Part shown: in pieces, positions 23,414 through 62,934 of the stretch
Layout of the letters: each line of letters starts with the position of its first letter
Position numbering within the stretch: the first letter of the stretch is position 1
From: Bradyrhizobium icense
GTDB lineage: Bacteria > Pseudomonadota > Alphaproteobacteria > Rhizobiales > Xanthobacteraceae
DNA: 64,000 nt
Assembly: GCF_001693385.1 (NCBI RefSeq)
Contig: NZ_CP016428.1
Span: forward strand, 6,262,001 to 6,326,000
Direction of reading: 5' to 3'
Translations under genes and position numbers: made by a program
Notes under the pieces: model-generated
The model's input: the letters and a program-made list of their open reading frames with translations, nothing else
Told to the model about the DNA's origin: nothing
Database searches by the model: none

Positions 23414-24622
23414 TCAGCCGCGCACGGCGATCTGCGCCTTCCCGGCAAAGGATGCGATTTCATCCTCCGACAGGCCGGTCTCCTTCAGATACGCCCGCGT
23501 GTGCTCACCGAGCGTCGACATGCGCTTCGCCGCCGACACCTTGGCACCCGACATGCGGAACGGCAGGTTGAGCACCCTGAAGGTGCCGCCGCCGTCCTCG
23601 ACCTCGGCCAACGCGCCGCGATGGGCAATCTGCGGATCGCGCAACGCTTCGGCCACGGTGCGGTAGGCCGACGACGGGACACCTTGCGCATTGAGCGCGG
23701 CGAGGCATTGCGCGGTCGTCACGGTGCGCGACCACGCTTCCACTCCTTCCATCAGGCTCGTCCAGTTTTCTCTCCGATCGGAATATTTGGCAAAGCGCGG
23801 ATCGCTCACCCACTCCGGATGACCGATCACCTGCATCAGGCTCTGGAAGGTTTTCTCGCTGGCGATTGCCATCATGACATAGCCGTCCGTCGTCTCGATC
23901 GGACCGAACATCGGCCGTTGCGTCGGCTTCACGTCGAATTGCGACCATTGCAGTTCGTTCAGCGTCAGGCTCAGCATGGCTTCCAGCATCGAGACGTCAA
24001 TGTGCTGTCCCTGCCCGGTTGCCGTGCGCTGATACAGTGCGGCCGAGATCGCGCCGAACGCATATACGCCGGTCAGCACGTCGGCGTGATAGATGCCGCA
24101 ATAGTCCGGCCGGCTTCGTCCGGGCTGGTAAGCCAGATGCGCCATCTCATAGCCCGACGCCGCGTGAATCACCGGCGCATAGGCCGGCAGCTCCGCCGAC
24201 GGCCCTGTCTGGCCATATCCGGAGATCGAGCAATAGACCAGTTTCGGATTGAGACTGTGCAGGGAAGCGTAATCGAGCTTCAATCGCCGCATCACCCCCG
24301 GACGGAAATTCTCGACCAGCACGTCAGCATTCGCGACCAATCGGCGAACCGCCTCCAAACCCTTGGACGACTTCAGATCCAGAACCAGGCTGTTCTTGCC
24401 GACATTGAGTTGGCCGAACGCGGTTGAGCAATTGTTCCGCACCGGCGGGCGGGTGCGCATCGTCTCGCCCTCCTCGGTTTCAATCTTGATGACCTCCGCC
24501 CCCATATCGGCTAACATGCGTGTGCAGTGAGGCCCGGCAATCGTGGTTGAGAAATCGAGGACGCGTAGGCCTGCAAAGCTGCCTGTCATACTCCTCTGAT
24601 CGTTACCGGCTATCGTCATCAT
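23414..24622 (-). CDS. CaiB/BaiF-family (class III) CoA transferase
   Basis: About 402 residues. N-terminal Rossmann-type 'GLRVLDFSTTIAGPHCTRMLADMGAEVIKIE', followed by 'LNVGKNSLVLDLKS', 'ADVLVENFRPGVM' and 'YCGIYHADVLTGVYA', where the aspartate fits the catalytic residue that forms the acyl-anhydride intermediate. It moves CoA between carboxylic acids. The ATG pair at 24622/24619 has GAGGAG about ten bases upstream; a third ATG at 24589 is possible. It sits upstream of the peptide-type importer on the same strand, suggesting the importer supplies an acid activated by this enzyme. Confidence 0.88.
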   Translation of the reverse strand: MMTIAGNDQRSMTGSFAGLRVLDFSTTIAGPHCTRMLADMGAEVIKIETEEGETMRTRPPVRNNCSTAFGQLNVGKNSLVLDLKSSKGLEAVRRLVANADVLVENFRPGVMRRLKLDYASLHSLNPKLVYCSISGYGQTGPSAELPAYAPVIHAASGYEMAHLAYQPGRSRPDYCGIYHADVLTGVYAFGAISAALYQRTATGQGQHIDVSMLEAMLSLTLNELQWSQFDVKPTQRPMFGPIETTDGYVMMAIASEKTFQSLMQVIGHPEWVSDPRFAKYSDRRENWTSLMEGVEAWSRTVTTAQCLAALNAQGVPSSAYRTVAEALRDPQIAHRGALAEVEDGGGTFRVLNLPFRMSGAKVSAAKRMSTLGEHTRAYLKETGLSEDEIASFAGKAQIAVRG

Positions 24623-24745
24623 TATCTTGTAGCTCCTCGGGCCTGACGGCACTTGTTGTTGGCGCAGCGAGACCCTAAAGGGCGCCGCCGCGACAGGAAA
24701 GCCTTTAGCTAGGAACCGATAGCGAGGGCCCGGCATTATCGCCAG

Positions 24746-24781
24746 GTAAACTGGACCCTTGGAGTAAACTGGACCCTTTCT
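24746..24781. repeat. Two-copy tandem repeat, 18-bp unit
   Basis: GTAAACTGGACCCTT occurs at 24746-24760 and again at 24764-24778, an 18-bp period. It lies between the divergent CoA-transferase and glycogen synthase genes, 40-75 bp before the likely glgA start, where it could serve as paired protein-binding sites or be a simple slippage duplication. Confidence 0.7.
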
Positions 24782-24819
24782 TGCATTTCCCCTCATCAAG
24801 GCTGGTAGAGGGCGTTCCT

Positions 24820-48191: not shown

Positions 48192-49433
48192 TCAGGACGG
48201 ATGGGCGGACAGATACGGCGAGTTGGCAATCGACCAGGACGGCATCGGCTCCATGCGAAAGATCTGCCGCAGATGGACTTCATCGGGCCCGTCACCAATC
48301 CGCAACAGGCGCCCCCAGGCCAGCGCCTGATGGATCGGCGTATCGTCGGAGCCGCCCATGGCGCCGAACACCTGCATGGCGCGGTCGGCGATCTTCTGCA
48401 GCATCGCGGGCACTGCCACCTTGATCAAGGACACATCGCGCCAGGCGCCGTGATGGCCGGCCTGATCGAGGCGCCATGCGCAACGATAGGTCAGCAGGCG
48501 GGCCTGCTCGAGCTCGACGCGGGATTCCGCGATCCAGCGCTGCACGGTGTCGTACTGCATCACGGTACGTCCGAACGCGGACCGCTCGGATGACCGCACC
48601 ATCATCAATTCGATCAGCAGTTCGCATAGCCCGATCGAGCGCATGCAGTGATGGATACGCGCCGGCCCCAAACGAATCTGCGCGACCTTGAAGCCGTCGC
48701 CTTCCGCGCCGAGCAGGTTCGCGCGGGGCACGCGCACGTTTTCGAACGAAAGCTCGCCGATCGGCGCGACGTGATCTTCGCACCCCATCCAGCGCAGCCG
48801 GCGCACCAGCCGAACGCCTGGCGTATCCATCGGCACGATAATGCAGGAATGGCGCCGCGTCCGGTCGGCGTCGGAATCGGTCACGCCCATCACGATCAGG
48901 AAGCTGCATTTCGGATGCGCCGCGCCGGTGATGAACCATTTCCGCCCGTTGATGACGTAGTCATTGCCGTCCCGGACCATGCGGGTGGCGATGTTGGTCG
49001 CATCGGATGAAGCCACGTCCGGCTCGGTCATGCCGAACGCCGAGCGTGTCCTGGCTTCCAGCAGCGGCTGCAGCCAGCGCGCCTTCTGCTCGGGCGTCGC
49101 GCAATTCTGCAGCGCGATCATGTTGGGCACGTCGGGCGCCTGGCAATTGAAGACCTCAGGCGCCCAGAACAGCCGGCCCATGATCTCGGCCAATGGCGCA
49201 TATTCGAGGTTGGAAAGACGCGTGCCGGGTTCGTCTTCTCCGAGTTCAGGAAGCCCGAGATTCCATAGCCCCGCCGCACGCGCCTTGCGCTGTAGGTCCT
49301 GCATGAAGGGCGCGTCCTCGCCTTCAGCCGTGTGATCGAGCCAGGCGCGATGGCGCGGCAACACTTCGCGGTCGAAAAACGCCTGAAGTCTCTCCCGCCA
49401 CTCTTCCGATCGTTTGGAAAGGTCGAAATCCAT
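48192..49433 (-). CDS. Acyl-CoA dehydrogenase (ACAD11-like)
   Basis: A 413-residue flavoprotein. N-terminal helices, then 'RSAFGMTEPDVASSDATNIATRM' (FAD/substrate loop), 'INGRKWFITGAAHPKCSF' and a C-terminal 'QVFGAMGGSDDTPIHQALAWGRLLRIGDGPDEVHLRQI'. It oxidises an acyl-CoA to the enoyl-CoA, passing electrons to ETF. The sequence is nearest the ACAD10/11-like subgroup. First gene of the leftward catabolic set with the monooxygenase and sulfatase, and divergent from the IclR regulator. Confidence 0.9.
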   Translation of the reverse strand: MDFDLSKRSEEWRERLQAFFDREVLPRHRAWLDHTAEGEDAPFMQDLQRKARAAGLWNLGLPELGEDEPGTRLSNLEYAPLAEIMGRLFWAPEVFNCQAPDVPNMIALQNCATPEQKARWLQPLLEARTRSAFGMTEPDVASSDATNIATRMVRDGNDYVINGRKWFITGAAHPKCSFLIVMGVTDSDADRTRRHSCIIVPMDTPGVRLVRRLRWMGCEDHVAPIGELSFENVRVPRANLLGAEGDGFKVAQIRLGPARIHHCMRSIGLCELLIELMMVRSSERSAFGRTVMQYDTVQRWIAESRVELEQARLLTYRCAWRLDQAGHHGAWRDVSLIKVAVPAMLQKIADRAMQVFGAMGGSDDTPIHQALAWGRLLRIGDGPDEVHLRQIFRMEPMPSWSIANSPYLSAHPS

Positions 49434-49464
49434 GCCGCCTCCCGATTTTTCGGGAACCTAAGCG

Positions 49465-49500
49465 TATATCGACACAATATGCAAATTTCATTTCGATATA
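49465..49500. promoter_or_regulatory. Candidate IclR operator in the divergent control region
   Basis: TATATCGA (49465-49472) and TCGATATA (49493-49500) are perfect 8-bp inverted arms with a 20-bp AT-rich spacer. They lie between the divergent acyl-CoA dehydrogenase start (49433) and IclR start (49536). The 28-bp arm spacing is long for one IclR dimer, so it may be two half sites or a looped site. Confidence 0.6.
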
Positions 49501-49535
49501 TTGACAGATTTGGGGAACCATGGCCCACTTCGGTC

Positions 49536-50348
49536 ATGGCGACGATTTCCAATATCGATCCCTCGATACCCCGGACTGCGGAGGACCAGGCCGATCCCTC
49601 CTTCGCGACCACGCTGGCGCACGGGCTCGACGTGCTGGCGGCGTTCCGCAACCGGGCGGGCTCGCTGTCGAACGCGGAGCTTGCGCTCCATACAGGCCTG
49701 TCGCGGCCGACGGTGTCGCGGTTGACCTACACGCTGGCGCAGCTTGGCTATCTCAAGCGCGACGCCAAGGGACGCTTCCAGCTCGGGCTCGGCATTCTGG
49801 CCGCGGCCTATCCGGTGCTGTCGGCGCTGAAGGTGCGGCAATTGGCACGCCCGCTGATGCGCGATTTCGCGGCCTACACCGGCGGCACGGTTTCGATCGC
49901 GATGCCGTTCGGGCTCGACTTCATCTATGTCGAAACGCTGCGCACCACCGACGCCGTGGCGCATCTGCCAGATGTCGGTTTTGCCAGCTCGCTGGCGCCC
50001 ACCGCCGTCGGCCGCGCTCTGCTCGCGCTCTTCACCGCGGAAGAACTCGACGCGTACGTGGCGAAGGTGAAGGCCGAGCGCCCGGAAGAGGCCGATTATG
50101 TCGAGCGGCGGACGCTGCCGGACGTCGCGCTTTGCAAGGAGCGCGGCTTTGCGATTTCGCTCGGCGAATGGCGGCGCGAGATTTTTGGTGTCGCCGCGCC
50201 GCTGTACCGCACGCCGTCGGGCGATTGCCTCTCGGTCAATTGCGGCATTCCCTCGTTTCGCTTCAATGCCGAACAGATCGAGCGTGAATGCGGGCCGCGC
50301 ATGCTCGGCTTGGCGCGCAGCATCCGCTCGCTGGTAGCCAACGACTGA
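49536..50348 (+). CDS. IclR-family transcriptional regulator
   Basis: A 270-residue regulator. The N-terminal winged helix ('GLDVLAAFRNRAGSLSNAELALHTGLSRPTVSRLTYTLAQLGYL') is followed by the IclR effector domain ('FAAYTGGTVSIAMPFGLDFIYVETLRTTDAVAHLPDVGFASSLAPTAVGRALLA'). Divergent from the acyl-CoA dehydrogenase-monooxygenase-sulfatase set, its likely target. The ATG at 49536 is chosen; an in-frame ATG at 49479 would make a leader of 19 residues lying within the operator region. Confidence 0.9.
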   Translation: MATISNIDPSIPRTAEDQADPSFATTLAHGLDVLAAFRNRAGSLSNAELALHTGLSRPTVSRLTYTLAQLGYLKRDAKGRFQLGLGILAAAYPVLSALKVRQLARPLMRDFAAYTGGTVSIAMPFGLDFIYVETLRTTDAVAHLPDVGFASSLAPTAVGRALLALFTAEELDAYVAKVKAERPEEADYVERRTLPDVALCKERGFAISLGEWRREIFGVAAPLYRTPSGDCLSVNCGIPSFRFNAEQIERECGPRMLGLARSIRSLVAND

Positions 50349-50412
50349 ATACCCCCGTTAGAGGGGCAAAGGCGCACCGTTTCACCGGTGCGCAACATAT
50401 GGGGAGGGAAGA

Positions 50413-51411
50413 ATGAGCCGGATCAAAACCGTGCTGGGTTTTGCCATGAATCTTGCCCTGGGTATTGCGTTGGGCGTAGCCGTGCCGCTTGCCACGGCCG
50501 CGCAGGCGCAAATCAGCTATCCGAACCGACCGATCCGCATCATCGTTCCCTACCCCGCCGGCGGCATTGTCGACATCGTCGCGCGCGCGGTGACCGAGCA
50601 AGTCGGCCGCGACTGGAAACAGACGGTGGTCATCGAAGCAAGGCCCGGCGGCAACAGCAACATCGGCACCGCGTCGGTGGCGCGCAGCGAACCCGACGGT
50701 TACACCTGGCTGGTCACCGGCCCCGCGGCTTTGGTCAACCCGACGCTCTACAAGGACGCCGGCTGGGACGCGCTGAAGGATCTCAAATGCGTCGGCCTTG
50801 CGGTCTGGAATCAGAGTGTGGCGCTGGTCCATCCCTCGATGCCGGCCAGCACCATCAAGGAATTCGTCGAGATCGCGCGCAAGAAGCCGGGCGAACTCAA
50901 TTTCGGCAATCCCGGTACCGGCTCCTCCATCGATCTGAGCGCGCAAAAGCTGTTTCAGGCCGCCAATATCAAGCTGACCAATGTCGGCTACAAGGGGCAG
51001 CCGCAGGCGCTGATCGACCTGATGACCAACCTGATGCATTTCGAGATCGTCTCGCTCGAGCTGGCACTGCCGCACATCAGGGCCGGCAGCGTGAAACCGC
51101 TTGCTGTCATGACCGACAAACGTGTCGCCGATCTGCCAGATGTGCCGACGATTGCGGAAGCCGGATTTCCGGAAGCCACCTACGTGCCCTGGTATGGCAT
51201 CTACGTCCAGGCGGGAACGTCCGATGCCATCGTCGCGAAGATCAACGAGGCCATCAACAAGGCGCTGCAGAACCCGGAAGTGCGGCGCCAGCTCTCGGTC
51301 GCCAATATTCCGGGCAAGCCGATGCCGCTCGCCGACCTCGCCGCGCTGATGAAGGCAGACCACGAGAAGCTGACGAAGGTGATCGCGACATCAGGCATGG
51401 CGCTGCAGTGA
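50413..51411 (+). CDS. Bug/TctC-family periplasmic solute-binding protein
   Basis: A 332-residue exported protein. Sec signal (hydrophobic 8-33, ending 'ATAAQAQI'), then the Bug fold 'YPNRPIRIIVPYPAGGIVDIVARAV', 'VVIEARPGGNSNIGT', 'GTGSSIDLSAQKLFQAANI' and 'VGYKGQPQALIDLM'. TctC-type proteins bind carboxylates; here no tctA or tctB is adjacent, as for many Bug proteins. It follows the IclR gene by 64 bp. GGAGGG four bases before the ATG. Confidence 0.91.
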   Translation: MSRIKTVLGFAMNLALGIALGVAVPLATAAQAQISYPNRPIRIIVPYPAGGIVDIVARAVTEQVGRDWKQTVVIEARPGGNSNIGTASVARSEPDGYTWLVTGPAALVNPTLYKDAGWDALKDLKCVGLAVWNQSVALVHPSMPASTIKEFVEIARKKPGELNFGNPGTGSSIDLSAQKLFQAANIKLTNVGYKGQPQALIDLMTNLMHFEIVSLELALPHIRAGSVKPLAVMTDKRVADLPDVPTIAEAGFPEATYVPWYGIYVQAGTSDAIVAKINEAINKALQNPEVRRQLSVANIPGKPMPLADLAALMKADHEKLTKVIATSGMALQ

Positions 51412-51430: not shown

Positions 51431-52435
51431 TTACTTCTTCACCTTGCTGGCATCCATCTTGATGCTCGTATCCAGCATTTTGACAGAGAACGCAGTATTC
51501 ACGTCGAACGGCTTTTCCATGCCGAGATAGGTCTGCACCAGCTCGTAGTCCTTCTTCATCCGCTCGGCATCAATCCAGCCCAGCGCCTTGGTCGTCGTGA
51601 ATTCGTCTGTCATCAGGAACTTGATGCGCTCCCACTGCCGCTGCTGGTTTTCCTTGTCGAGACCCGAAGCCTGGTCGAGCAGCGCCTTGAGGCAGGGCGC
51701 GACGTCGGTGACGCAGGCAGCATAGGCCTTCTGGCTGATCTTGACGAAGTCCTCGACCAGTTTTGGATTCTTTTGCAGATAGGCGCCGTTGACGATCAGT
51801 GAATTGCCGTAAGGGTTCAGCCCGATATCCTTCCAGTTGACGTAGCCGAGATCGGCGCCGAACTCGATCACCTTCAGATCGTGCTCATTGTAGAAATCGC
51901 TGATGATATCGACGGTATGGCTCTTCAGCGCCGCGATCTTGGCGGTCGGACCGACATTGACGAAGCTCACCGAGTCCGGCGCGATGCCCGCCGCCTTGGC
52001 GAAGGCCGGCCACATCACCCGTGACGCGTCGCCCGGCGGATTGCCGATCTTGTGGTTCGGAAAGTCCTTCGGCCCGTTCACGCCATAGCTCTTCAGCCAA
52101 TAGAAGGTCTGTCCGGTGTTGGCGTAGATGCTCATCAGCGCCACCACGTCGGCGCCCTTGCTCTTGGCCACCAGCGCGGTCGCGAGATCCGCGATGCCGA
52201 ACGGCGAGCCGCCGGAGCCGACCCTCAGCGAGGAGACGCCGGAGCCTTTGCCGACCTCAATCGTCAGCTCGATGCCGGCCTTCTCGTACCAGCCCTGCGA
52301 TTTGGCGTAGTAGAACGGTGAGTGATCGGCGGTCGGGGTCCAGTTCAGGATCAGATTGACCTGCTCGGCCGCAGCGCAGGGAATGGCCGGCGCGGCAAGT
52401 GCAGCCGCCAATCCCGCAATTCGCAAAGCCTTCAT
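51431..52435 (-). CDS. ABC importer substrate-binding protein, NMT1/THI5-like
   Basis: A 334-residue exported protein. The Sec signal ('ALRIAGLAAALAAPAIPCAAAEQ') is followed by the NMT1-like core 'VNLILNWTPTADHSPFYYAKSQGWYEKAGIELTIEVGKGSG', 'GIADLATALVAKSKGADVVALMSIY' and 'GYVNWKDIGLNPYGNSLIV'. Such proteins bind pyrimidine-like or amine ligands. AGGAGG lies seven bases before the ATG at 52435. It is divergent from the TetR gene and belongs with the permease and ATPase at 53.3 and 57.0 kb, although it sits in a separate transcript. Confidence 0.9.
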   Translation of the reverse strand: MKALRIAGLAAALAAPAIPCAAAEQVNLILNWTPTADHSPFYYAKSQGWYEKAGIELTIEVGKGSGVSSLRVGSGGSPFGIADLATALVAKSKGADVVALMSIYANTGQTFYWLKSYGVNGPKDFPNHKIGNPPGDASRVMWPAFAKAAGIAPDSVSFVNVGPTAKIAALKSHTVDIISDFYNEHDLKVIEFGADLGYVNWKDIGLNPYGNSLIVNGAYLQKNPKLVEDFVKISQKAYAACVTDVAPCLKALLDQASGLDKENQQRQWERIKFLMTDEFTTTKALGWIDAERMKKDYELVQTYLGMEKPFDVNTAFSVKMLDTSIKMDASKVKK

Positions 52436-52516
52436 TGCACCCTCCTCGTTCTGCAACCCGATCTTGTCGTCGCTCCTCGGTGACGCTACCAATGCAACAA
52501 GGGACCACACGACTTG

Positions 52517-52532
52517 TCAACTATTTGGTTGG
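52517..52532. promoter_or_regulatory. TetR operator-like half palindrome in the divergent promoter region
   Basis: TCAACTA-TT-TGGTTGG resembles the perfect operator at 53181-53200 (TCAACCA-GA-TGGTTGA) at 13 of 16 positions or so, allowing the free centre. It overlaps the TetR gene start and, on the minus strand, contains TTGACA (52521-52516), a good -35 for the binding-protein gene, with TTGCAT 18 bp on. Binding would thus repress both directions. Confidence 0.65.
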
Positions 52533-52534
52533 AA

Positions 52535-53182
52535 ATGCCGAGAAAACGTTCTGACGATACCAGGCCGCAACGGCGCGATCCGGCCGCGACCCGCAAAAAA
52601 CTGCTGACGGCGGCGCGGCGCGAATTCGCCAGCAGCGGCCTCGCCGGAGCCCGGGTCGACGAGATCGCCGCCCGCGCGGGCGTCAACAAGCAGCTCGTCT
52701 ATCACTATTTCGGCGACAAGGACGCACTTTACCTTGCTGTGCTCGAGTGGGTTTACGAGGAAATCCGCGCCCAGGAACGCAAGCTCAATCTCGAGGGATT
52801 GCCGCCCGAGCAGGCGATCAAGAAGCTGATCGAAAGTTCCTTCGATCACCTCGCCGCACATCCTGATTTCATCGTGCTGCTGAACGACGAGAACCGCGGC
52901 GGCGCGCGCCATGTGCGCGGCTCGCGAAAACTGGAAGCGATGCATTCGCCGCTGGTCAGCCTCGTCTCGACCATTCTCGGCGAGGGCGTGAAGGCCGGCA
53001 TATTCCGTAAAGGTATCAACCCCGTACACCTCTATATCTCGATTGCCGGGCTCAGCTATTTTTACTTTTCGAACACGCCGACCCTGTCGGCGATCTTCGG
53101 CAAGGACCTGTCGAGCCGGGCCGCACGGCAGGCGCGCCGCAAACACGTGGTCGACCTGGTGATGCATTCGCTGCGCCCTTAA
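52535..53182 (+). CDS. TetR-family regulator, RutR/YcdC-like
   Basis: A 215-residue regulator. The N-terminal HTH reads 'ATRKKLLTAARREFASSGLAGARVDEIAARAGVNKQLVYHYFGDKDALYLAVL'. The C-terminal half ('PVHLYISIAGLSYFYFSNTPTLSAIFGKDL') resembles the RutR (YcdC) ligand domain. In E. coli RutR binds TTGACCA-n2-TGGTCAA and responds to pyrimidines; the operators here (TCAACCA-n2-TGGTTGA) are similar in shape. It lies between the divergent binding-protein gene and the downstream import/catabolic operon, with operators at both ends. The ATG at 52535 is chosen over one at 52514. Confidence 0.9.
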   Translation: MPRKRSDDTRPQRRDPAATRKKLLTAARREFASSGLAGARVDEIAARAGVNKQLVYHYFGDKDALYLAVLEWVYEEIRAQERKLNLEGLPPEQAIKKLIESSFDHLAAHPDFIVLLNDENRGGARHVRGSRKLEAMHSPLVSLVSTILGEGVKAGIFRKGINPVHLYISIAGLSYFYFSNTPTLSAIFGKDLSSRAARQARRKHVVDLVMHSLRP

Positions 53183-53223
53183 TCAACCAGATGGTTGATT
53201 ACCGGGAGAGGCCGCGCTAGATT
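53181..53223 (+). promoter_or_regulatory. TetR operator overlapping the promoter of the permease-SDR operon
   Basis: AATCAACCA-GA-TGGTTGATT (53181-53200) is a perfect 9+9 palindrome. TTGATT at 53195-53200, the right arm, is a plausible -35; TAGATT at 53218-53223 follows after exactly 17 bp as a -10. Its left end overlaps the TetR stop codon. The layout predicts direct repression of the operon starting at 53270. Confidence 0.8.
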
Positions 53224-53269
53224 GCCGCCGCGCGGCGGGGAACCGGCCGCGCATCCAAAGGAGCGCACG

Positions 53270-54040
53270 GTGTTCAGCGATGACGGACGATCGATACGGT
53301 CTTTCGCGATCATCCTGGTCGTGCATCTGGCCGTGATCGTGCTCTGGCAGGTTCTGGTCGACGCCTTCCAGGTACCGAAATTCATCCTTCCCTCCCCGCT
53401 CGCGACCGTCGCGACGCTGGGCTCGCCCAGCTACGCCTGGCTCTCCAATCTCTCTGTGACGGCGATCGAAATTCTCGGCGGGTTCTGCCTCGGCGCGCTG
53501 GTCGGCATTATGCTGGCCGTGCTGTTCACCTGGTCGCCGCTGGTCAGCCTTTTGCTGCTGCCGCTGTTCGTGACGCTGAATATGATTCCGAAAGTGGCGC
53601 TGGGACCGCTGTTCATCGTCTGGTTTTCCTACGGCATATTTCCGAACATCCTGATCGCGTTTTCCATTTGCTTCTTTCCGATCCTGCTCACCACTGCGCG
53701 TGGATTGAGTGAGGTGGAACCGGATCTGCTGGATCTCGTGAAGTCGCTGCGCGGTTCGCGCTGGACGCTGTTCCGGAAAATCCAGTTGCCGGGCGCGCTG
53801 CCATACGTGTTTTCCGGAATGAAGGTTGGCGCCATCCTGGCGGTGGCCGGCGCAATCGTCGGCGAGTTCATCGCTTCCGAGCGCGGGCTCGGCTACCTCA
53901 TGATCCAGGTGCAGTCCTCACTCGATACGCCGGCGATGGTGATGGCGGTGGTACTCCTGACATTGCTCGGTGTGGCGCTGTATGGCCTCGTTCTCGGCCT
54001 CGAACGGCTATTCGTCGTTCGGGACATCCGGCTGCAATGA
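53270..54040 (+). CDS. ABC importer permease, NitT/TauT type
   Basis: About 256 residues. Five to six membrane segments; EAA loop 'LLDLVKSLRGSRWTLFRKIQLPGALPYVFSGMKVGA', as in SsuC/TauC/ThiX-type permeases. I start it at GTG 53270, preceded by AAAGGAG with seven-base spacing; an ATG at 53195 lies inside the operator/promoter. First gene of the TetR-regulated operon. Works with the binding protein at 51.4-52.4 kb and the ATPase at 56.97 kb. Confidence 0.9.
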   Translation: MFSDDGRSIRSFAIILVVHLAVIVLWQVLVDAFQVPKFILPSPLATVATLGSPSYAWLSNLSVTAIEILGGFCLGALVGIMLAVLFTWSPLVSLLLLPLFVTLNMIPKVALGPLFIVWFSYGIFPNILIAFSICFFPILLTTARGLSEVEPDLLDLVKSLRGSRWTLFRKIQLPGALPYVFSGMKVGAILAVAGAIVGEFIASERGLGYLMIQVQSSLDTPAMVMAVVLLTLLGVALYGLVLGLERLFVVRDIRLQ

Positions 54041-54058
54041 CAAGATCAGGGAAGAAAC

Positions 54059-55096
54059 ATGCTGTTGACCCGCGATACCCTGCCCACAACAATTGCCGAT
54101 ATTGCAGCGCTCGATGAATTACTGTGCCGCCCGAGCCAGGCGTTGATCGACGATCTGCGCAAGGTCGACGGCGACATCATGATCCTGGGTGTTGCCGGCA
54201 AAATGGGACCGACGCTGGCCGGCCTTGCAAAAGCGGCCGTGCCGGAGCGCCGCGTGATCGGCGTGGCCCGGTTCAGCGAACCCGTCGTCAAGGACTGGCT
54301 GCAGGTGCGCGGAATCGAGACCATCAATTGCGATCTGCTCGACGAGGCCGCCATCAAAGCTTTGCCGAAGATTGCGAACATCGTGTTCATGGCCGGGCGC
54401 AAATTCGGCGCCGAGGGTGACCTCTCGCTGACCTGGGCAATGAATTCGCACGTCCCAGCCCTGGTCGCGCAAACCTTTGCGACCTCGCGTATCGTCGCGT
54501 TCTCGACCGGCTGCATTTATCCGTTCGTGCCGGTCTCCGGCAAGGGCTCGGCCGAGGATATGGCGCCCGATCCGCCGGGCGAATATGCGCAATCCTGCGT
54601 CGGGCGCGAGCGCATGTTCGAGTATTTCTCACGCAAGCATGGAACGCCCGGACGGCTGTTCCGGCTGAACTACGCGATCGACATGCGTTACGGCGTGCTG
54701 CACGATATAGCGAGCAAGGTGCTGCAGGGTCAGCCGATCGACGTCAGCCTCGGCCATGTCAATTTCATCTGGCAAGGCGACGCTTCCTCGCAGGCGCTGC
54801 GCTGTCTGGCGCATTGCGAGACGCCGACCTCGCCGATCAATGTCAGTGGTCATGAAATACTCGCCGTGCGCGATCTGGCCGCGAAATTCGGCCAGCGCTT
54901 CGGCCGCGCGCCAATCATCGCCGGCAAGGAAGAGCCGACGGCCTGGCTCACCGACACATCGCAGGCGGTGAAACTATTCGGCCTGCCGATCGTCGATACC
55001 GAGCAGCTCATCAATTGGACCGCCGATTGGGTGTCGCGATCGATGCCGAGCCTCGGCAAGCCCACTAAATACGAGGTGCGCGATGGCCGCTATTGA
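54059..55096 (+). CDS. NAD-dependent epimerase/dehydratase-like SDR, atypical active site
   Basis: A 345-residue extended SDR. Rossmann region 'IMILGVAGKMGPTLAGLAKAAVPERRVIGVARF' (about 41-73), then 'IVFMAGRKFGAEGDLSLTWAMNSHVPALVAQTF' and 'RIVAFSTGCIYPFVPVSG'. The family Y-x3-K reads 'YAQSCVGRERMF', so Lys is replaced by Cys. The substrate region ('FNYA'-like 'FRLNYAIDMRYGVL') fits the extended SDR fold. Catalysis by the usual mechanism is doubtful. Second gene of the operon; overlaps the next gene by 14 nt. Confidence 0.82.
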   Translation: MLLTRDTLPTTIADIAALDELLCRPSQALIDDLRKVDGDIMILGVAGKMGPTLAGLAKAAVPERRVIGVARFSEPVVKDWLQVRGIETINCDLLDEAAIKALPKIANIVFMAGRKFGAEGDLSLTWAMNSHVPALVAQTFATSRIVAFSTGCIYPFVPVSGKGSAEDMAPDPPGEYAQSCVGRERMFEYFSRKHGTPGRLFRLNYAIDMRYGVLHDIASKVLQGQPIDVSLGHVNFIWQGDASSQALRCLAHCETPTSPINVSGHEILAVRDLAAKFGQRFGRAPIIAGKEEPTAWLTDTSQAVKLFGLPIVDTEQLINWTADWVSRSMPSLGKPTKYEVRDGRY

Positions 55097-55907
55097 GCCC
55101 ATCGACATCGTCGAACTCGATGTCAGCGATGCGAAGGCCGGGCTCGTGCTGTCGACCGAAGCCGGCTGGAACCAGAACGAGGCCGACTGGCGCTTTTTCC
55201 TGAGCCAAGGGGTCGTATTCGGCGCGCGCGATGGCAACCGATTGGTGGCGACAGCGGCGCTGCTGCCCTACTCGGCGGGCAATGCCTGGATCAGCATGGT
55301 GCTGGTGACTGCCAACTTTCGCCGCCGCGGCCTTGCGACCAGGCTCGTCGATGCCTGCCTGGAAGTTGCCGCGCGGCGCGGGCTCACAAGCTGGCTTGAT
55401 GCCACACCGGCTGGCGCGGCCGTCTACGCTCCGCTCGGCTTTGCGCCGACGCTGCAATTGCGGCGGTTGCGGTTGGAGAAGCCGCAAGGCACCATCGCGA
55501 CGAGGCCACTAGCGGCCGACAACCTCGAGGCCCTGGCCGCGCGCGATGGCGGTGCCATGGGATTCGACCGCAGCACATTGCTGTCGGAATTTGCTGCGCG
55601 CCCGGGTTCGCGCATCGTGTCGGATGTCCGAGCCATGGCCCTCGTCCGCGATGGGCGCACCGCGCGGCACATCGGTCCAGTCTTAGCCGACCACGCCGAT
55701 CAGGCGCTGGGGTTGGTCGAAGCCATCACCGGCTCCGAAACCGGACCTTGGCTGATCGACGCCGTTCATTCTCAAGACGCGTTTCTGAACGGTCTCGTTC
55801 GCTCAGGCTGGAATATCGAGCGGCCGTTTCAGCGCATGCGTTTTGGCTCCGCGACCGCCTCGCCCGCGCAACCGCCGTTCGCCGTCGCCGGCCCGGAATT
55901 CGGATAG
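55083..55907 (+). CDS. GNAT-family N-acetyltransferase
   Basis: A 274-residue protein with a GNAT core in the first half: 'AWISMVLVTANFRRRGLATRLVDACLEVAARRGLTSWLDATPAGAAVYAPLGFAP', containing the acetyl-CoA pyrophosphate loop (R-R-R-G-L-A). The second half resembles the C-terminal domain seen in two-domain GNATs. It starts inside the SDR gene (14-nt overlap), consistent with coupling. Substrate unknown; within this set it may acetylate an imported amine. Confidence 0.85.
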   Translation: MAAIEPIDIVELDVSDAKAGLVLSTEAGWNQNEADWRFFLSQGVVFGARDGNRLVATAALLPYSAGNAWISMVLVTANFRRRGLATRLVDACLEVAARRGLTSWLDATPAGAAVYAPLGFAPTLQLRRLRLEKPQGTIATRPLAADNLEALAARDGGAMGFDRSTLLSEFAARPGSRIVSDVRAMALVRDGRTARHIGPVLADHADQALGLVEAITGSETGPWLIDAVHSQDAFLNGLVRSGWNIERPFQRMRFGSATASPAQPPFAVAGPEFG

Positions 55908-55918
55908 GAACAGCCGCC

Positions 55919-56974
55919 ATGCATCATAGCGAAATCAAAGCCGAGGTCCGAAAGCTGATCGCTGACGGCACCGTGCTGCCGGCGCATCCGCTCGCACTCG
56001 ACGCCAACCGCGCACTCGATGTGCGCCATCAGCGGGCACTGACGCGCTACTACCTCGATGCCGGCGCCGGAGGATTGGCAGTGGGCGTGCACACCACGCA
56101 ATTCGCGATCCGCGACGTCGGCATGTACCGTCCCGTGCTGGAGCTGGCGGCCGAGACCGCCGCATCATGGACCAAACGGCCAGTCGCGATGGTCGCTGGT
56201 TTGGCCGGTCCGACGCAGCAGGCTGTTGCAGAGGCGCAAACCGCACGCGGCATCGGCTATCACGCCGGCCTGCTCAGCCTGGCTGCGATGAAATCGGCAT
56301 CCGAGGATGACATCATTGCGCATTGCGAGGCAGTGGCACGCGAGATCCCACTGGTCGGCTTCTATTTGCAACCGGCCGTCGGCGGCGTGATCCTCAGCGC
56401 CGATTTCTGGAAGCGCTTTGCGGCCATCGATAACGTCATCGCCATCAAGGTGGCGCCGTTCAATCGCTATCGGACGCTGGACGTTCTGCGCGGAGTGGCG
56501 GCAGCGAACGCGCTCGACCGCGTCGCGCTCTATACCGGCAACGACGACCACATCCTGCTGGACCTCACGTTGCCGTTCGACCTCCGCGACAGCGGCGTCA
56601 CCACGCGAGCATACTTCAAGGGCGGCCTGCTCGGGCACTGGTCCGTGTGGACCGCGAGCGCGATCAGGCAGTTCGAGATGTGCAAGGCGGCGCGCGGCAA
56701 GGACACGGTGCCGGCCGACCTGCTGGCGCTCGACGCTCGTGTCACCGACTGCAACAGCGCGTTCTTCGACATCGCCAACAATTTCCACGGTTGCATCGCC
56801 GGTTGCCACGAAATCCTGCGGCGGCAGGGATTGATGCAGGGCCTCTGGTGTCTCGATCCCACCGAAGGGCTGAGCCCGGGCCAGATGCAGGAGATCGACC
56901 GCGTCTGCCGCGAGCATGCCGATCTCTCCGACGACGCATTCGTGAGGGAGAACCTGCACAAATGGCTGGCATGA
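55919..56974 (+). CDS. DapA-family aldolase/lyase, extended
   Basis: A 351-residue (beta/alpha)8 lyase of the dihydrodipicolinate synthase/N-acetylneuraminate lyase family. Schiff-base lysine in 'VIAIKVAPF' (Lys177), Tyr149 in 'GFYLQP' and the N-terminal 'PLALDANRALDVRHQRALTRYYLDAGAGGLAVGVHTTQF'. The C-terminal part is longer than in DapA (about 290). No lysine genes nearby, so it is probably a catabolic lyase. The ATG at 55919 (GGAA 11 bases upstream) is chosen over longer frames running from the GNAT gene. ATGA overlap with the following ATPase. Confidence 0.86.
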   Translation: MHHSEIKAEVRKLIADGTVLPAHPLALDANRALDVRHQRALTRYYLDAGAGGLAVGVHTTQFAIRDVGMYRPVLELAAETAASWTKRPVAMVAGLAGPTQQAVAEAQTARGIGYHAGLLSLAAMKSASEDDIIAHCEAVAREIPLVGFYLQPAVGGVILSADFWKRFAAIDNVIAIKVAPFNRYRTLDVLRGVAAANALDRVALYTGNDDHILLDLTLPFDLRDSGVTTRAYFKGGLLGHWSVWTASAIRQFEMCKAARGKDTVPADLLALDARVTDCNSAFFDIANNFHGCIAGCHEILRRQGLMQGLWCLDPTEGLSPGQMQEIDRVCREHADLSDDAFVRENLHKWLA

Positions 56975-57750
56975 CGGCGGAAGAGCCCTTCATCAGCCTG
57001 CGCAATGTCCGCAAGGTCTACCGGTCGAGGGGTGCGGAATTCCTCGCCGTCTCCGACGTCACCATGGACGTGAAAGAAGGCGAGCTGGTTTCGCTGGTCG
57101 GCCCGTCCGGCTGCGGCAAGACCACCGTGCTGAAGATTCTGGCCGGGCTGCACGAGGCCGATGGCGGCACCATCAAGATCGGCAATGCGAAAACATCGTT
57201 CGATCCAGCGCGCGACATCGGCATGGTGTTCCAGCAGGCCCTGCTTTTGAAATGGCGAACCATTTTGGACAACGTGCTGCTGCCGGCTGAAATCGTCGGC
57301 CTGCCGATGAAAGCCGCACGGAATCGCGCCCGCGATCTGCTCAACCTGGTCGGCCTCGCCGGCTATGAGGACAAATATCCGCAGCAATTGTCCGGCGGCA
57401 TGCAGCAGCGCACGGCGATTGCGCGCGCCTTCATCCACGATCCCAAGCTGATCCTGATGGACGAACCGTTCGGCGCGCTAGACGCGCTGACCCGCGAGCA
57501 GATGAACCTCGAAATGCTGCGGATCTGGCGCGAAAGCGGCAAGACCATCCTGTTCGTGACACACTCGATTCAGGAAGCGGTATTCCTCGCCTCGCATTGC
57601 GCCGTGCTCACGGCCGGTCCGGCGCGAATGGCGGAGTATTTTCCGATCGAGCTGCCGTTCCCGCGGGCACTGCCGATCAAGACCACGGATGAGTTCGGCG
57701 CCTATGCGCGGCGGATTTATACGAGGCTGGGGCTGAGCCCAGGGACATAG
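56971..57750 (+). CDS. ABC importer ATPase, NitT/TauT type
   Basis: About 259 residues. Walker [10 protein letters not shown], signature '[16 protein letters not shown]', Walker B '[18 protein letters not shown]', H-loop '[10 protein letters not shown]'. The ATG at 56971 overlaps the DapA-like stop as ATGA; an ATG at 56962 is an alternative. Last gene of the TetR-controlled operon; energises uptake with the permease at 53.3 kb. Confidence 0.9.
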
Positions 57751-60288: not shown

Positions 60289-60738
60289 ATGGCAAACCTC
60301 ACAATAAACGGAAAAACAATCAATGTGGACGTCGAAGACGACACGCCACTGCTCTGGGCTATCAGGGAGAATGTCGGGCTGACCGGCACCAAATATGGAT
60401 GCGGCATAGCAATATGCGGCGCCTGCACCGTCCATATCGACGGAGTCGCGATGCGCTCCTGCGGCATGACGGTCAGCGAAGCAGCCGGCAAACAGATCAC
60501 CACGATCGAAGGACTCGCCAGCAACGGCGCGCTGCACAAGGTGCAGCAGGCATGGATCGCCAACGACGTCCCGCAATGCGGCTATTGCCAGAGCGGCATG
60601 ATCATGGCGGTCGCGGCGCTTCTAAAGGAGAAGCCGAAGCCGACCGATGAGGATATCGACGAGGCCATCACCAATATCTGCCGATGCGGGACCTTCCAGC
60701 AGGTCCGCGAGGCGATCCACGCCGCCGCGAGCGTTTGA
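60289..60738 (+). CDS. 2Fe-2S subunit of a molybdenum hydroxylase, IorA-like
   Basis: A 149-residue protein with both clusters of the xanthine-oxidase small subunit. The plant-ferredoxin-type site has C38, C43, C46 and C58 ('[15 protein letters not shown]', 'RSCGM'); the second uses C-G-Y-C and C-R-C-G ('[10 protein letters not shown]', 'NICRCGTF'). It passes electrons from the Mo centre. It matches isoquinoline 1-oxidoreductase alpha and aldehyde dehydrogenase small subunits. First gene of the operon, nine bases before the large subunit. Confidence 0.92.
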
Positions 60739-60747
60739 GGTGATGCC

Positions 60748-62934
60748 ATGAATCAGCACGTCATGCCCAAACTGAATCGCCGAGCCTTCGTGATCGGCAC
60801 CGCTGCCGCCGGCGCCGGGCTCGCGATTGGCCTCGATATTCCCTTCGGCGGACCGAAGGTCGTCCGCGCCGCCGATGGCTCACCAGAAGTCAATGTCTGG
60901 GTGGTGATCCGCCCCGATAACACCACCGTCGTTCGCGTCGCCCGCTCGGAGATGGGCCAGGGCACCCTTACCGGCCTCGCCCAGCTCGTCGCCGAAGAGC
61001 TCGAATGCGACTGGTCGAAGGTCGTCACCGAATATCCGACACCGGGTCAAAGTGTCGCACGCAAGCGCGCCTGGGGCGATTTTTCGACGGGCGGCAGCCG
61101 CGGCATTCGCTCCAGCCAGGACTATGTCCGCAAAGGCGGCGCCACCGCCCGCGTGATGCTGATACAGGCCGCCGCGAACGAGTGGAAAGTGCCTGCATCG
61201 GAATGCACCGCCGCCAACAGCATCATCACGCACACGCCATCGGGCAGGACCACGACCTACGGCAAGGTGGTGGAAGCCGCTGCGAAGCTCGAGCCCCCGG
61301 CGGACGTCAAGCTGAAGGATCCCAAGGACTGGAAGATCGTCGGCAAGGGCGTCAAGCGGCTCGACACCGTCGACAAGACCACCGGAGCGATGATCTACGG
61401 CGCCGACGTCAAGCTGCCTGGCATGCTCAACGCGGCGATCAAGGACGCGCCGGTCTTCGGCAGCAAGCTGAAGAGCTACGACGAGGCCAAGATCGCCGGC
61501 ATGAAGGGCGTCAAGAAGGTGGTGAAGGTCGGCGATAGCGCGGTCGCGGTCGTCGCCGATACCTGGTGGCACGCCAAGACTGCCCTTGATGCGCTGCCGA
61601 TCGTCTGGGACGAAGGCGAGAACGCCAAAGTCTCCAGCGAGTCGATCGCCAAATGGCTGGCCGAAGGCCTCGACAATTCGCAGCCGGCCTATATCGGCAA
61701 CCAGAACGGCGACGCCAAGGCTGCGATTGCAAGCGCCGCCAAGAAGGTCGAGGCGGTCTACGACTATCCCTACCAGAACCACGCCGCGATGGAGCCGATG
61801 AACGCCACCGCGCTCTATACCGCGGACAAATGCGAGGTTTGGTGCGGCACGCAGAATGGCGAGGCGGCCTTCGCCGCCACGCTCGAAGCGTCGGGATTGC
61901 CGGCCGAAAAATGCGAGGTGCACAAGCTGATGCTGGGCGGAGGCTTCGGCCGGCGCGGCATGACCGACTATGTGAGGCAAGCGGTTTTGATCGCCAAGGA
62001 GATGCCGGGCACGCCGGTCAAGCTGTTGTGGTCACGCGAAGAGGATATGGCGCAAGGCAAATTCCATCCGGTCACGCAATGCAAGCTGACCGGAGCCTTC
62101 GATGCCGACAACAATCTCACGGCGCTGCATGTGCGATTGTCCGGCCAGTCGATCCTCTACACGGTGCGTCCGGCGGCGCTGGTGAACGGCATGGATACGG
62201 TTGCGTTTCAGGGCTTGAGCCCTTCCGGCGATGCGGCGATTGGCTACGCCGTGCCGAACCTGCTGGTCGAGCATTCGATGCGCAATCCGCACGTCCCGCC
62301 AGGTTTCTGGCGCGGCGTCAACGTCAACCAGAATGCCATCTATATGGAATGCTTCATGGATGAACTGGCGCATTCGGTGGGCCAGGATCCGGTGGAATTC
62401 CGCCGCAAGCTGATGAGCAAGCATCCGAAACATCTCGCCGTGCTCAATGCGGTGGCCGACAAGATCGGTTGGGGCAAGCCCGCGCCGCAAGGCGTCTATC
62501 GAGGGATTGCGCAGGTGATGGGCTATGGCAGCTATGTCGCGGGTGCCGCGGAAATCTCTGTCACCGAGGGCAGCAAGATCAAGGTGCATCGCATCGTCGC
62601 TTCGACCGATCCCGGCTACATCGTCAACCCGGCGCAGGTCGAGCGGCAGATCGCGGGCTCCTTCGTCTATGGCCTGTCCGCGCTGTTCTACGGCGGCTGC
62701 ACGGTGAAGGACGGCAAGATCGAGCAGACCAACTTCGACACCTACAATTCCATGCGCATCGCCGAGATGCCGAAGGTGGAATGCGTCATGGTGCCGAGCG
62801 GCGGCTTCTGGGGCGGCGTCGGCGAGCCGACGATCGGTGTCGCCGCGCCTGCGGTGCTCAATGCCTACTTCGCGGCGACCGGCAAGCGTATACGTTCTGT
62901 GCCACTGAGGGACCAAAACATCTCGTTCGCCTGA
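60748..62934 (+). CDS. Molybdopterin-binding subunit of a xanthine dehydrogenase-family hydroxylase, IorB-like
   Basis: A 728-residue protein. The N-terminus has a Tat-like signal (LNRRAFVIGTAAAGAGLAIGL, about 9-29), as in isoquinoline 1-oxidoreductase beta and membrane/periplasmic aldehyde dehydrogenases. Mo-MCD regions: 'EMGQGTLTGLAQLVAEELECDWSKV', 'GGSRGIRSSQDYVRKGGATARVML', 'KLMLGGGFGRRGMTDYV' and 'GGFWGGVGEPTIGVAAPAVLNAYF' with the catalytic Glu in 'GVGEP'. It hydroxylates an N-heterocycle or aldehyde in the periplasm. No separate FAD subunit, so electrons go to the small subunit and then probably to cytochrome c. Confidence 0.92.
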   Translation: MNQHVMPKLNRRAFVIGTAAAGAGLAIGLDIPFGGPKVVRAADGSPEVNVWVVIRPDNTTVVRVARSEMGQGTLTGLAQLVAEELECDWSKVVTEYPTPGQSVARKRAWGDFSTGGSRGIRSSQDYVRKGGATARVMLIQAAANEWKVPASECTAANSIITHTPSGRTTTYGKVVEAAAKLEPPADVKLKDPKDWKIVGKGVKRLDTVDKTTGAMIYGADVKLPGMLNAAIKDAPVFGSKLKSYDEAKIAGMKGVKKVVKVGDSAVAVVADTWWHAKTALDALPIVWDEGENAKVSSESIAKWLAEGLDNSQPAYIGNQNGDAKAAIASAAKKVEAVYDYPYQNHAAMEPMNATALYTADKCEVWCGTQNGEAAFAATLEASGLPAEKCEVHKLMLGGGFGRRGMTDYVRQAVLIAKEMPGTPVKLLWSREEDMAQGKFHPVTQCKLTGAFDADNNLTALHVRLSGQSILYTVRPAALVNGMDTVAFQGLSPSGDAAIGYAVPNLLVEHSMRNPHVPPGFWRGVNVNQNAIYMECFMDELAHSVGQDPVEFRRKLMSKHPKHLAVLNAVADKIGWGKPAPQGVYRGIAQVMGYGSYVAGAAEISVTEGSKIKVHRIVASTDPGYIVNPAQVERQIAGSFVYGLSALFYGGCTVKDGKIEQTNFDTYNSMRIAEMPKVECVMVPSGGFWGGVGEPTIGVAAPAVLNAYFAATGKRIRSVPLRDQNISFA

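Follow-up and report, generated by a model that had tools for sequence, protein, structure and literature searches.

The window analyzed here, a 64,000-nucleotide (nt) stretch of the single 8.3-Mb contig of Bradyrhizobium icense (NZ_CP016428.1, positions 6,262,001 to 6,326,000), holds between 51431 and 57750 seven genes and two palindromes that appear to constitute one TetR-controlled import and enzyme unit. All seven genes were established by open reading frame (ORF) calls and Pfam, and they lie where the initial annotation had placed them, except that 51431, given there as the start of the unit, is the end of a minus-strand gene whose ATG is at 52435. That gene (51431..52435, minus strand), divergent from the rest, encodes a 334-residue solute-binding protein (SBP) of the NMT1/THI5-like type (PF09084, 134.3 bits against a cut-off of 20.5). 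Between its start codon and that of tetR lies the putative operator O1 (52517..52532, TCAACTATTTGGTTGG), which has two mismatches to TCAACCANNTGGTTGA. The tetR gene (52535..53182, plus strand) encodes 215 residues with TetR_N and TetR_C_29 domains (135 bits for the latter), and it is followed immediately after its stop codon by O2, a perfect match (53183..53198, TCAACCAGATGGTTGA). The remaining genes, all on the plus strand, are those for an ATP-binding cassette (ABC) permease with a GTG start (53270..54040; BPD_transp_1, 95.5 bits), an extended short-chain dehydrogenase/reductase (SDR; PF01370, 54059..55096), a two-domain GNAT protein (Acetyltransf_1 and Acetyltransf_18, 55083..55907), a 351-residue DapA-like protein of the dihydrodipicolinate synthase (DHDPS) superfamily (55919..56974), and a TauB/SsuB-like ABC ATPase (56971..57750; ABC_tran, 116.3 bits). 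The genes of a NitT/TauT-type importer are thus split around three enzyme genes, as first described, and the overlaps described with them are exact: 14 nt between the SDR and GNAT genes (55083-55096), and an ATGA that joins the stop of the DapA-like gene to the start of the ATPase gene (56971-56974). The permease and SDR genes are separated by 18 nt, and the GNAT and DapA-like genes by 11 nt. Rfam gave no match in the window, and scans for promoter-like and terminator-like sequences gave results at chance level only.

Co-occurrence of these genes across genomes was the test set beforehand, and the gene order does recur. A scan of named genomes found the pattern at no fewer than 596 places, at least 576 of them relatives, and 80 loci were retained. 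The nearest named relatives are from Bradyrhizobium, with a DapA-like protein 97% identical; 45 of 60 genomes of the genus carry a full-length close relative of that protein (at least 85% identity), and in a sample of the class it is present in 35 of 385 genomes and 20 of 276 genera. Among the 69 Bradyrhizobium-type loci (L031-L099, a set that includes metagenome-assembled genomes and one genome named Rhodopseudomonas), the SDR, GNAT, TetR, and SBP genes all accompany the DapA-like gene in 65, and in those 65 the permease and ATPase genes are also present in unchanged order. Three of the four incomplete loci (L043, L053, and L082) end at contig ends; the fourth, L092, had no detectable TetR. 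The order SBP (minus strand)/TetR/permease-SDR-GNAT-DapA-ATPase is also found in Rhodoplanes, Ferrovibrio, Mangrovicella, Tistrella, and Sulfitobacter. We are therefore highly confident that this is a conserved, coregulated unit, a single import-plus-enzyme assembly whose members are kept together across genomes. The genes for TctC, IclR, and acyl-CoA dehydrogenase proteins at 48195-51408 were considered as additional members and rejected, since their presence beside the unit varies within Bradyrhizobium. The enzyme set had been said to match no pathway, and none turned up in our searches; in the open-licence text, titles, and opening portions of abstracts consulted, we found no description of the operon, of DUF993 (a recurrent neighbor, see below), or of the SDR-DapA pair.

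The position of tetR between two operators survives comparison with chance. O1 faces the SBP gene and O2 the permease-to-ATPase operon; O2 is the only exact match to TCAACCANNTGGTTGA in the genome. We surveyed 91 loci with a TetR of at least 44% identity, counting as a site any sequence with at most three mismatches to TCAACCANNTGGTTGA. Sites were present on both flanks of tetR in 75 of these loci; for 50 scrambled palindromes matched in composition, the mean was 0.2 and the maximum 5. Taken singly, the upstream flank has a site in 78 loci and the downstream flank in 79 (73 with no more than one mismatch), against scrambled means of 2.0 and 1.4; since the loci are related, the corresponding maxima reach 68 and 39 of 91, so that single flanks are weak evidence and only the pair is a strong test. 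The pair follows the relatedness of the regulator: it occurs in 64 of 66 loci whose TetR is at least 75% identical, in 11 of 16 between 54 and 75%, and in none of 9 below 54%. In six of these last nine, TAACCANNTGGTTA is found instead, mismatched at no more than one position; this consensus was drawn from those same sites and is without a control. The paired sites are good evidence that this TetR protein would act at these palindromes; by analogy with the TetR family, we infer that it represses and is released by an inducer. Over the whole genome, there are 46 sites per strand with at most two mismatches, against 12 for the reversed pattern, so that this or another TetR protein may have further sites; we do not propose a wider regulon. 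The surroundings of the two other one-mismatch sites contain nothing like this unit among their ORFs. Elsewhere in the genome, G000:C1:4847180-4847234 (L182) carries two near-operator palindromes 39 bases apart, with one and two mismatches, possibly belonging to another TetR.

The closest named model for the regulator is RutR. The two proteins share a palindromic operator with a ACCANNTGGT core, and the TetR protein aligns to RutR (4x1e, 55.8 bits) over residues 12-215, nearly its whole length. The RutR operator is described as a palindrome of about 16 bp. The uracil contacts of RutR are W77, Y97, W167, Q171, and Q179 (PMC10891134); these map to R78, L98, A171, Y175, and T183 in our protein, so that none of the five is kept. 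RutR is the best NCBIfam match of the protein, yet it scores only 70.6 bits against a cut-off of 368, and no protein in the whole genome reaches that cut-off. The pyrimidine-like ligand at which the initial annotation hinted is accordingly not borne out; nor was any gene named for pyrimidine breakdown present in the annotated relatives fetched.

Beyond the genus, what persists is chiefly the association of the SDR with the DapA-like protein. In a sample of 398 genomes of the phylum (DapA-like, E <= 1e-20; SDR, E <= 1e-15), the DapA-like protein was found in 12 and the SDR in the same 12, eight of them from the window's own genus. Their co-occurrence is more than linkage, since in one genome (G075) the two genes are far apart, at 4.44 and 1.25 Mb on a 4.6-Mb contig. 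Plasmid records agree: 20 carry the DapA-like gene and 23 the SDR gene, 18 of the 20 are common to both lists, and the remaining two, which have the DapA-like gene only, are fragmentary (1.2 and 0.5 kb). Annotated records place the genes of the pair side by side or with a single gene between them in Paenibacillus, Mesobacillus, Rhodococcus, Aquisphaera, Streptomyces, Glaciihabitans, Prescottella, Tistrella, Sulfitobacter, and Nitratireductor, so that the pair extends past the phylum to Actinomycetota, Bacilli, and Planctomycetota. A wider set of 152 loci was assembled, 148 of them with a near-full-length DapA-like gene (one replicon is counted twice, as L194 and L252). The SDR gene lies in the same stretch in 137 of the 148, at a gap of at most 1.5 kb in 121 of these. 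GNAT is present in 122 of the 148, TetR in 120, and SBP in 117. Outside the genus the transporter changes and the pair mostly stays; the transporter near the DapA-like gene may be of the NMT1-ABC or TctABC-like type and, in annotated records, of the peptide-type ABC or sugar ABC type as well.

The active sites of the two enzymes are unusual and strongly conserved. The SDR shares with the extended SDRs (UDP-sugar epimerases and dehydratases, and TerB) their fold, the nucleotide-binding GxxGxxG motif (G44-V-A-G47-K-M-G50), the active-site tyrosine (Tyr176, in 100 of 100 aligned sequences), and the Ser/Thr element (Ser149-Thr150, also kept). Unlike them, it has lost the lysine of the YxxxK motif: its sequence is Y176-A-Q-S-C180, with cysteine where TerB (6d2v) has lysine. 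The altered active site claimed at the outset is thus real, and it is general, since the SDRs that share a stretch with a DapA-like gene have cysteine in 134 of 137 cases and valine in the other 3. A different lysine, Lys115, never varies, either in the 100 aligned sequences or in 12 plasmid copies. The DapA-like protein shares with DapA, NanA, KdgD, and L-2-keto-3-deoxyarabonate dehydratase the barrel (it passes the Pfam gathering score of PF00701), the Schiff-base lysine, the Thr-Thr pair, and the equivalent of Tyr133. The catalytic triad of DHDPS is T44-Y107-Y133. By pairwise sequence alignment, Lys161, Thr44-Thr45, and Tyr133 of DHDPS correspond to Lys177, Thr59-Thr60, and Tyr149, whereas Tyr107 is replaced by Met124 and the GTTGE motif by HTTQF; at 351 residues the protein further departs from the superfamily, and its identity to the structural matches listed is 14-22%. 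All 104 aligned sequences and all 10 plasmid copies have Lys177. Membership in DapA proper is contradicted by the loss of Tyr107 and by a dapA model score of 20.2 bits where 206 are needed. The curated sugar-acid lyase models are missed as well (KdgD, 22.8 against 374 bits; NanA, 19.6 against 382), which weakens the name and not the likeness of mechanism. From these residues, the DapA-like protein is probably a pyruvate-type Schiff-base lyase.

The predicted structures are consistent with these assignments. AlphaFold models (predicted local distance difference test [pLDDT] score of 76 for the DapA-like protein and 89 for the SDR) adopt the expected DHDPS-barrel and extended-SDR folds. In fold searches no known enzyme leads for the former, DHDPS and N-acetylneuraminate lyase falling within about 1 Z; for the latter TerB is best, ahead by 1.7 Z. 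Residues of the two proteins also vary together. In 134 of the 137 pairs (136 distinct DapA-like sequences), Tyr149 and Gln151 of the DapA-like protein accompany Cys180 of the SDR; in the other 3, Ala or Ser at the first position and Leu at the second accompany Val180, and no pair is mixed. In trees of 78 of the 137 pairs, rooted on Prescottella by choice, the three Val180 carriers form one clade with support of 1.0 for both proteins, and the pair distances correlate at 0.89; together these indicate that two proteins inherited together switched once and jointly. Three separate occurrences of the coupled change were considered and set aside, since one clade means a single event.

Sequence variation among the three enzymes is greatest in the GNAT. 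Its mean identity in the 69 Bradyrhizobium-type loci is 71%, compared with 87% for the SDR and 88% for the DapA-like protein, and over all aligned relatives its minimum is 34%, compared with 48 and 56% (that of the SBP falls to 27%). In 21 of the 137 loci with both SDR and DapA-like genes, no GNAT was detected (E <= 1e-15, 60% coverage, a threshold that diverged GNATs may miss). The initial annotation had suggested acetylation, oxidoreduction, and retro-aldol cleavage as a possible order; an obligatory first acetylation is for these reasons doubtful. Six loci carry a GNAT gene with no SDR gene in the stretch.

The importer belongs to the NitT/TauT type, with an NMT1 SBP, one BPD_transp_1 permease, and a TauB-like ABC ATPase encoded together, as in SsuABC, TauABC, and ThiXYZ-type systems. 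Unlike those, its genes are split around enzymes, and it falls below every NCBIfam cut-off in the list, so that no named substrate class (taurine, sulfonate, or nitrate) is reached: the SBP scores 47.8 bits against 163.5 for the SsuA family, the ATPase 216 against 357 for TauB, and the permease 116.9 against 295 for SaoP and 79.5 against 347 for SsuC. The best relatives of the SBP in the PDB are 4nmy (E 1.5e-17) and 3ix1 (E 7.7e-16), the latter a formyl-aminopyrimidine-binding protein.

The neighbors of the pair in other bacteria point to a carbohydrate. We counted genes of MR_MLE-like, Gfo/Idh/MocA-like, and xylose-isomerase-like classes, to which a first count, of 78 loci outside the Bradyrhizobium-type set, adds the sugar-ABC binding protein. 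In 46 of the 78, the DapA-like gene has such neighbors. Because some query proteins came from that set, the fair count is that of 31 later loci, which supplied no queries: 22 of these carry sugar-type genes compared with 1 of 40 control stretches hand-picked in 40 host genomes (p about 3e-10, a value that overstates the case because the loci are not phylogenetically independent). The sole control match (L308) lies next to a cluster copy. Among the named proteins of solved structure related to these neighbors, mostly at low scores, are ketose 3-epimerases, a 3-keto-D-glucoside 4-epimerase, 1,5-anhydrofructose reductase, and inositol-type dehydrogenases, and the SDR and DapA-like genes have sugar ABC transporter genes as immediate or close neighbors in Paenibacillus, Streptomyces, and Glaciihabitans. 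Of the 78 loci, 15 have genes for DUF993 proteins, 12 for PhyH proteins, and 10 for Meth_synt_2 proteins. DUF993 (PF06187), encoded in the same operons in some relatives, has a short motif in common with the DapA-like protein; homology of the two families received a probability of 0.8% from hhalign, on very shallow profiles.

A trio of genes for a Gfo/Idh oxidoreductase, a DUF993 protein, and a xylose-isomerase-like protein recurs beside the pair in L159, L157, L123, and other loci. Its members match 3oqb, 4dnh, and 3ju2/3qc0, respectively, which are solved and uncharacterised.

On balance, we are inclined to regard the locus as a unit under TetR control that imports and breaks down a small molecule derived from a sugar and possibly bearing an amino group. 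TetR would occupy both palindromes and leave when an intermediate binds. The importer would take up a keto-, deoxy-, or amino-sugar acid, or a close analog; the SDR, with its NAD(P)-binding glycine motif kept and its usual lysine lost, would oxidize or isomerize the imported compound; and the DapA-like protein would form a Schiff base through Lys177 and split or dehydrate the 2-oxo acid product, the simplest outcome being release of pyruvate. The GNAT might acetylate an amine on the substrate or on a by-product. This exact order of reactions is unlikely to be right in every step.

Several observations weigh against this interpretation. In Bradyrhizobium itself, sugar-type genes of each class occur in 0 or 1 of the 69 loci, and TctA/C genes in 13. 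Because the link with sugars runs through relatives and the Bradyrhizobium unit is without such neighbors, we consider a carbohydrate-derived substrate fairly probable and go no higher. An aromatic-ring dioxygenase gene lies within 10 kb of the pair in Rhodococcus, and among proteins of solved structure, those nearest to the SBP bind or synthesize thiamine precursors of the pyrimidine type. The absence of the usual catalytic lysine makes oxidation by the SDR a proposal only, and the DapA-like model is only moderately confident, its pLDDT being low at residues 210-212, 238-243, and 270-281. The pairing is itself imperfect: 11 of the 148 DapA-like loci have no SDR gene in the stretch, some lying at contig ends or being unlinked, and three haloarchaeal plasmids (L190, L191, and L208) carry the SDR with no DapA-like match, which argues against strict dependence. 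In the 31 later loci, GNAT is as frequent as the SDR (25 each), making it a closer companion than a bare accessory, and the choice of SDR and DapA-like protein alone as the core is a judgement drawn from the wider set.

In two of these plasmids, L191 and L208, genes for a sulfatase, a DegT aminotransferase, an AAC(3) acetyltransferase, and a carbon-nitrogen hydrolase lie near the SDR gene; in L190, the neighbors include Gfo/Idh/MocA and fumarylacetoacetate hydrolase family genes.

Three other accounts of the unit deserve consideration. The one that fares best, improbable as we hold it, is a biosynthetic or detoxifying function in which a toxic amine or antibiotic-like sugar, once imported, is modified by the GNAT and SDR and eliminated by the lyase. 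The variability of the GNAT might suit a detoxifier, and TerB, the closest fold to the SDR, acts in terfestatin biosynthesis; however, an importer is encoded within the same operon, and 21 of 137 loci that keep both other enzymes have no detected GNAT, though some of these may carry diverged ones. Somewhat less probable still is the breakdown of aromatic or lignin-type acids. The DHDPS superfamily includes hydratase-aldolases that act on aryl-pyruvate intermediates, as the DapA-like protein would in such a pathway, and TctC-like binding proteins and the Rhodococcus dioxygenase are found near some copies, but the conserved unit carries no ring-cleavage or ring-hydroxylating genes and its recurrent neighbors are instead keto-sugar-type enzymes. 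Uptake and catabolism of a pyrimidine-like or other N-heterocycle sensed by a RutR-like repressor seems the least probable of the three: the top NCBIfam match of the regulator, the resemblance of the SBP to 3ix1 and to yeast THI5/THI13, and the generic carbon-nitrogen hydrolase, amidohydrolase, and RidA genes in the haloarchaeal stretches with an SDR gene favor it, but it must contend with the replaced uracil contacts, the low RutR score, the lack of named pyrimidine-breakdown genes in annotated relatives, and the retention of both enzymes by relatives with sugar ABC transporters.

Elsewhere in the window, ARAGORN calls a selenocysteine tRNA at 23541-23618 (minus strand), inside a long ORF (23414-24799, minus strand) that presumably encodes a CaiB/BaiF CoA-transferase; the call is probably a false positive. 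Downstream of the unit, 60289-62934 (plus strand) presumably encodes a small 2Fe-2S protein and a large molybdenum-type oxidoreductase subunit resembling isoquinoline oxidoreductase.

To return to the sugar-derived substrate that we favor, a broader proposal can be made tentatively, as one slightly less likely to be right than wrong: that the SDR and the DapA-like protein are an undescribed two-enzyme module, serving a single class of keto- or amino-sugar intermediate in different bacterial phyla and joined to varied transporters (NMT1-ABC, sugar ABC, TctABC-like, and peptide-type ABC), with the SDR working without the classical catalytic lysine and the switch from Cys180 to Val and at Tyr149-Gln151 marking a second substrate class for these two enzymes. 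The records fetched give the two groups no more specific names than "dihydrodipicolinate synthase family protein" and "NAD(P)-dependent oxidoreductase." With an SDR whose lysine is consistently replaced and a Schiff-base-type protein that belongs to a new subfamily, the pair is well suited to the assignment of function to both groups, and the operator, strongly conserved and matched exactly only once in the genome, is a ready reporter in the search for the inducer. What the locus offers is a testable two-enzyme module that ranges from soil Bradyrhizobium to Bacilli, Streptomyces, and Planctomycetota.

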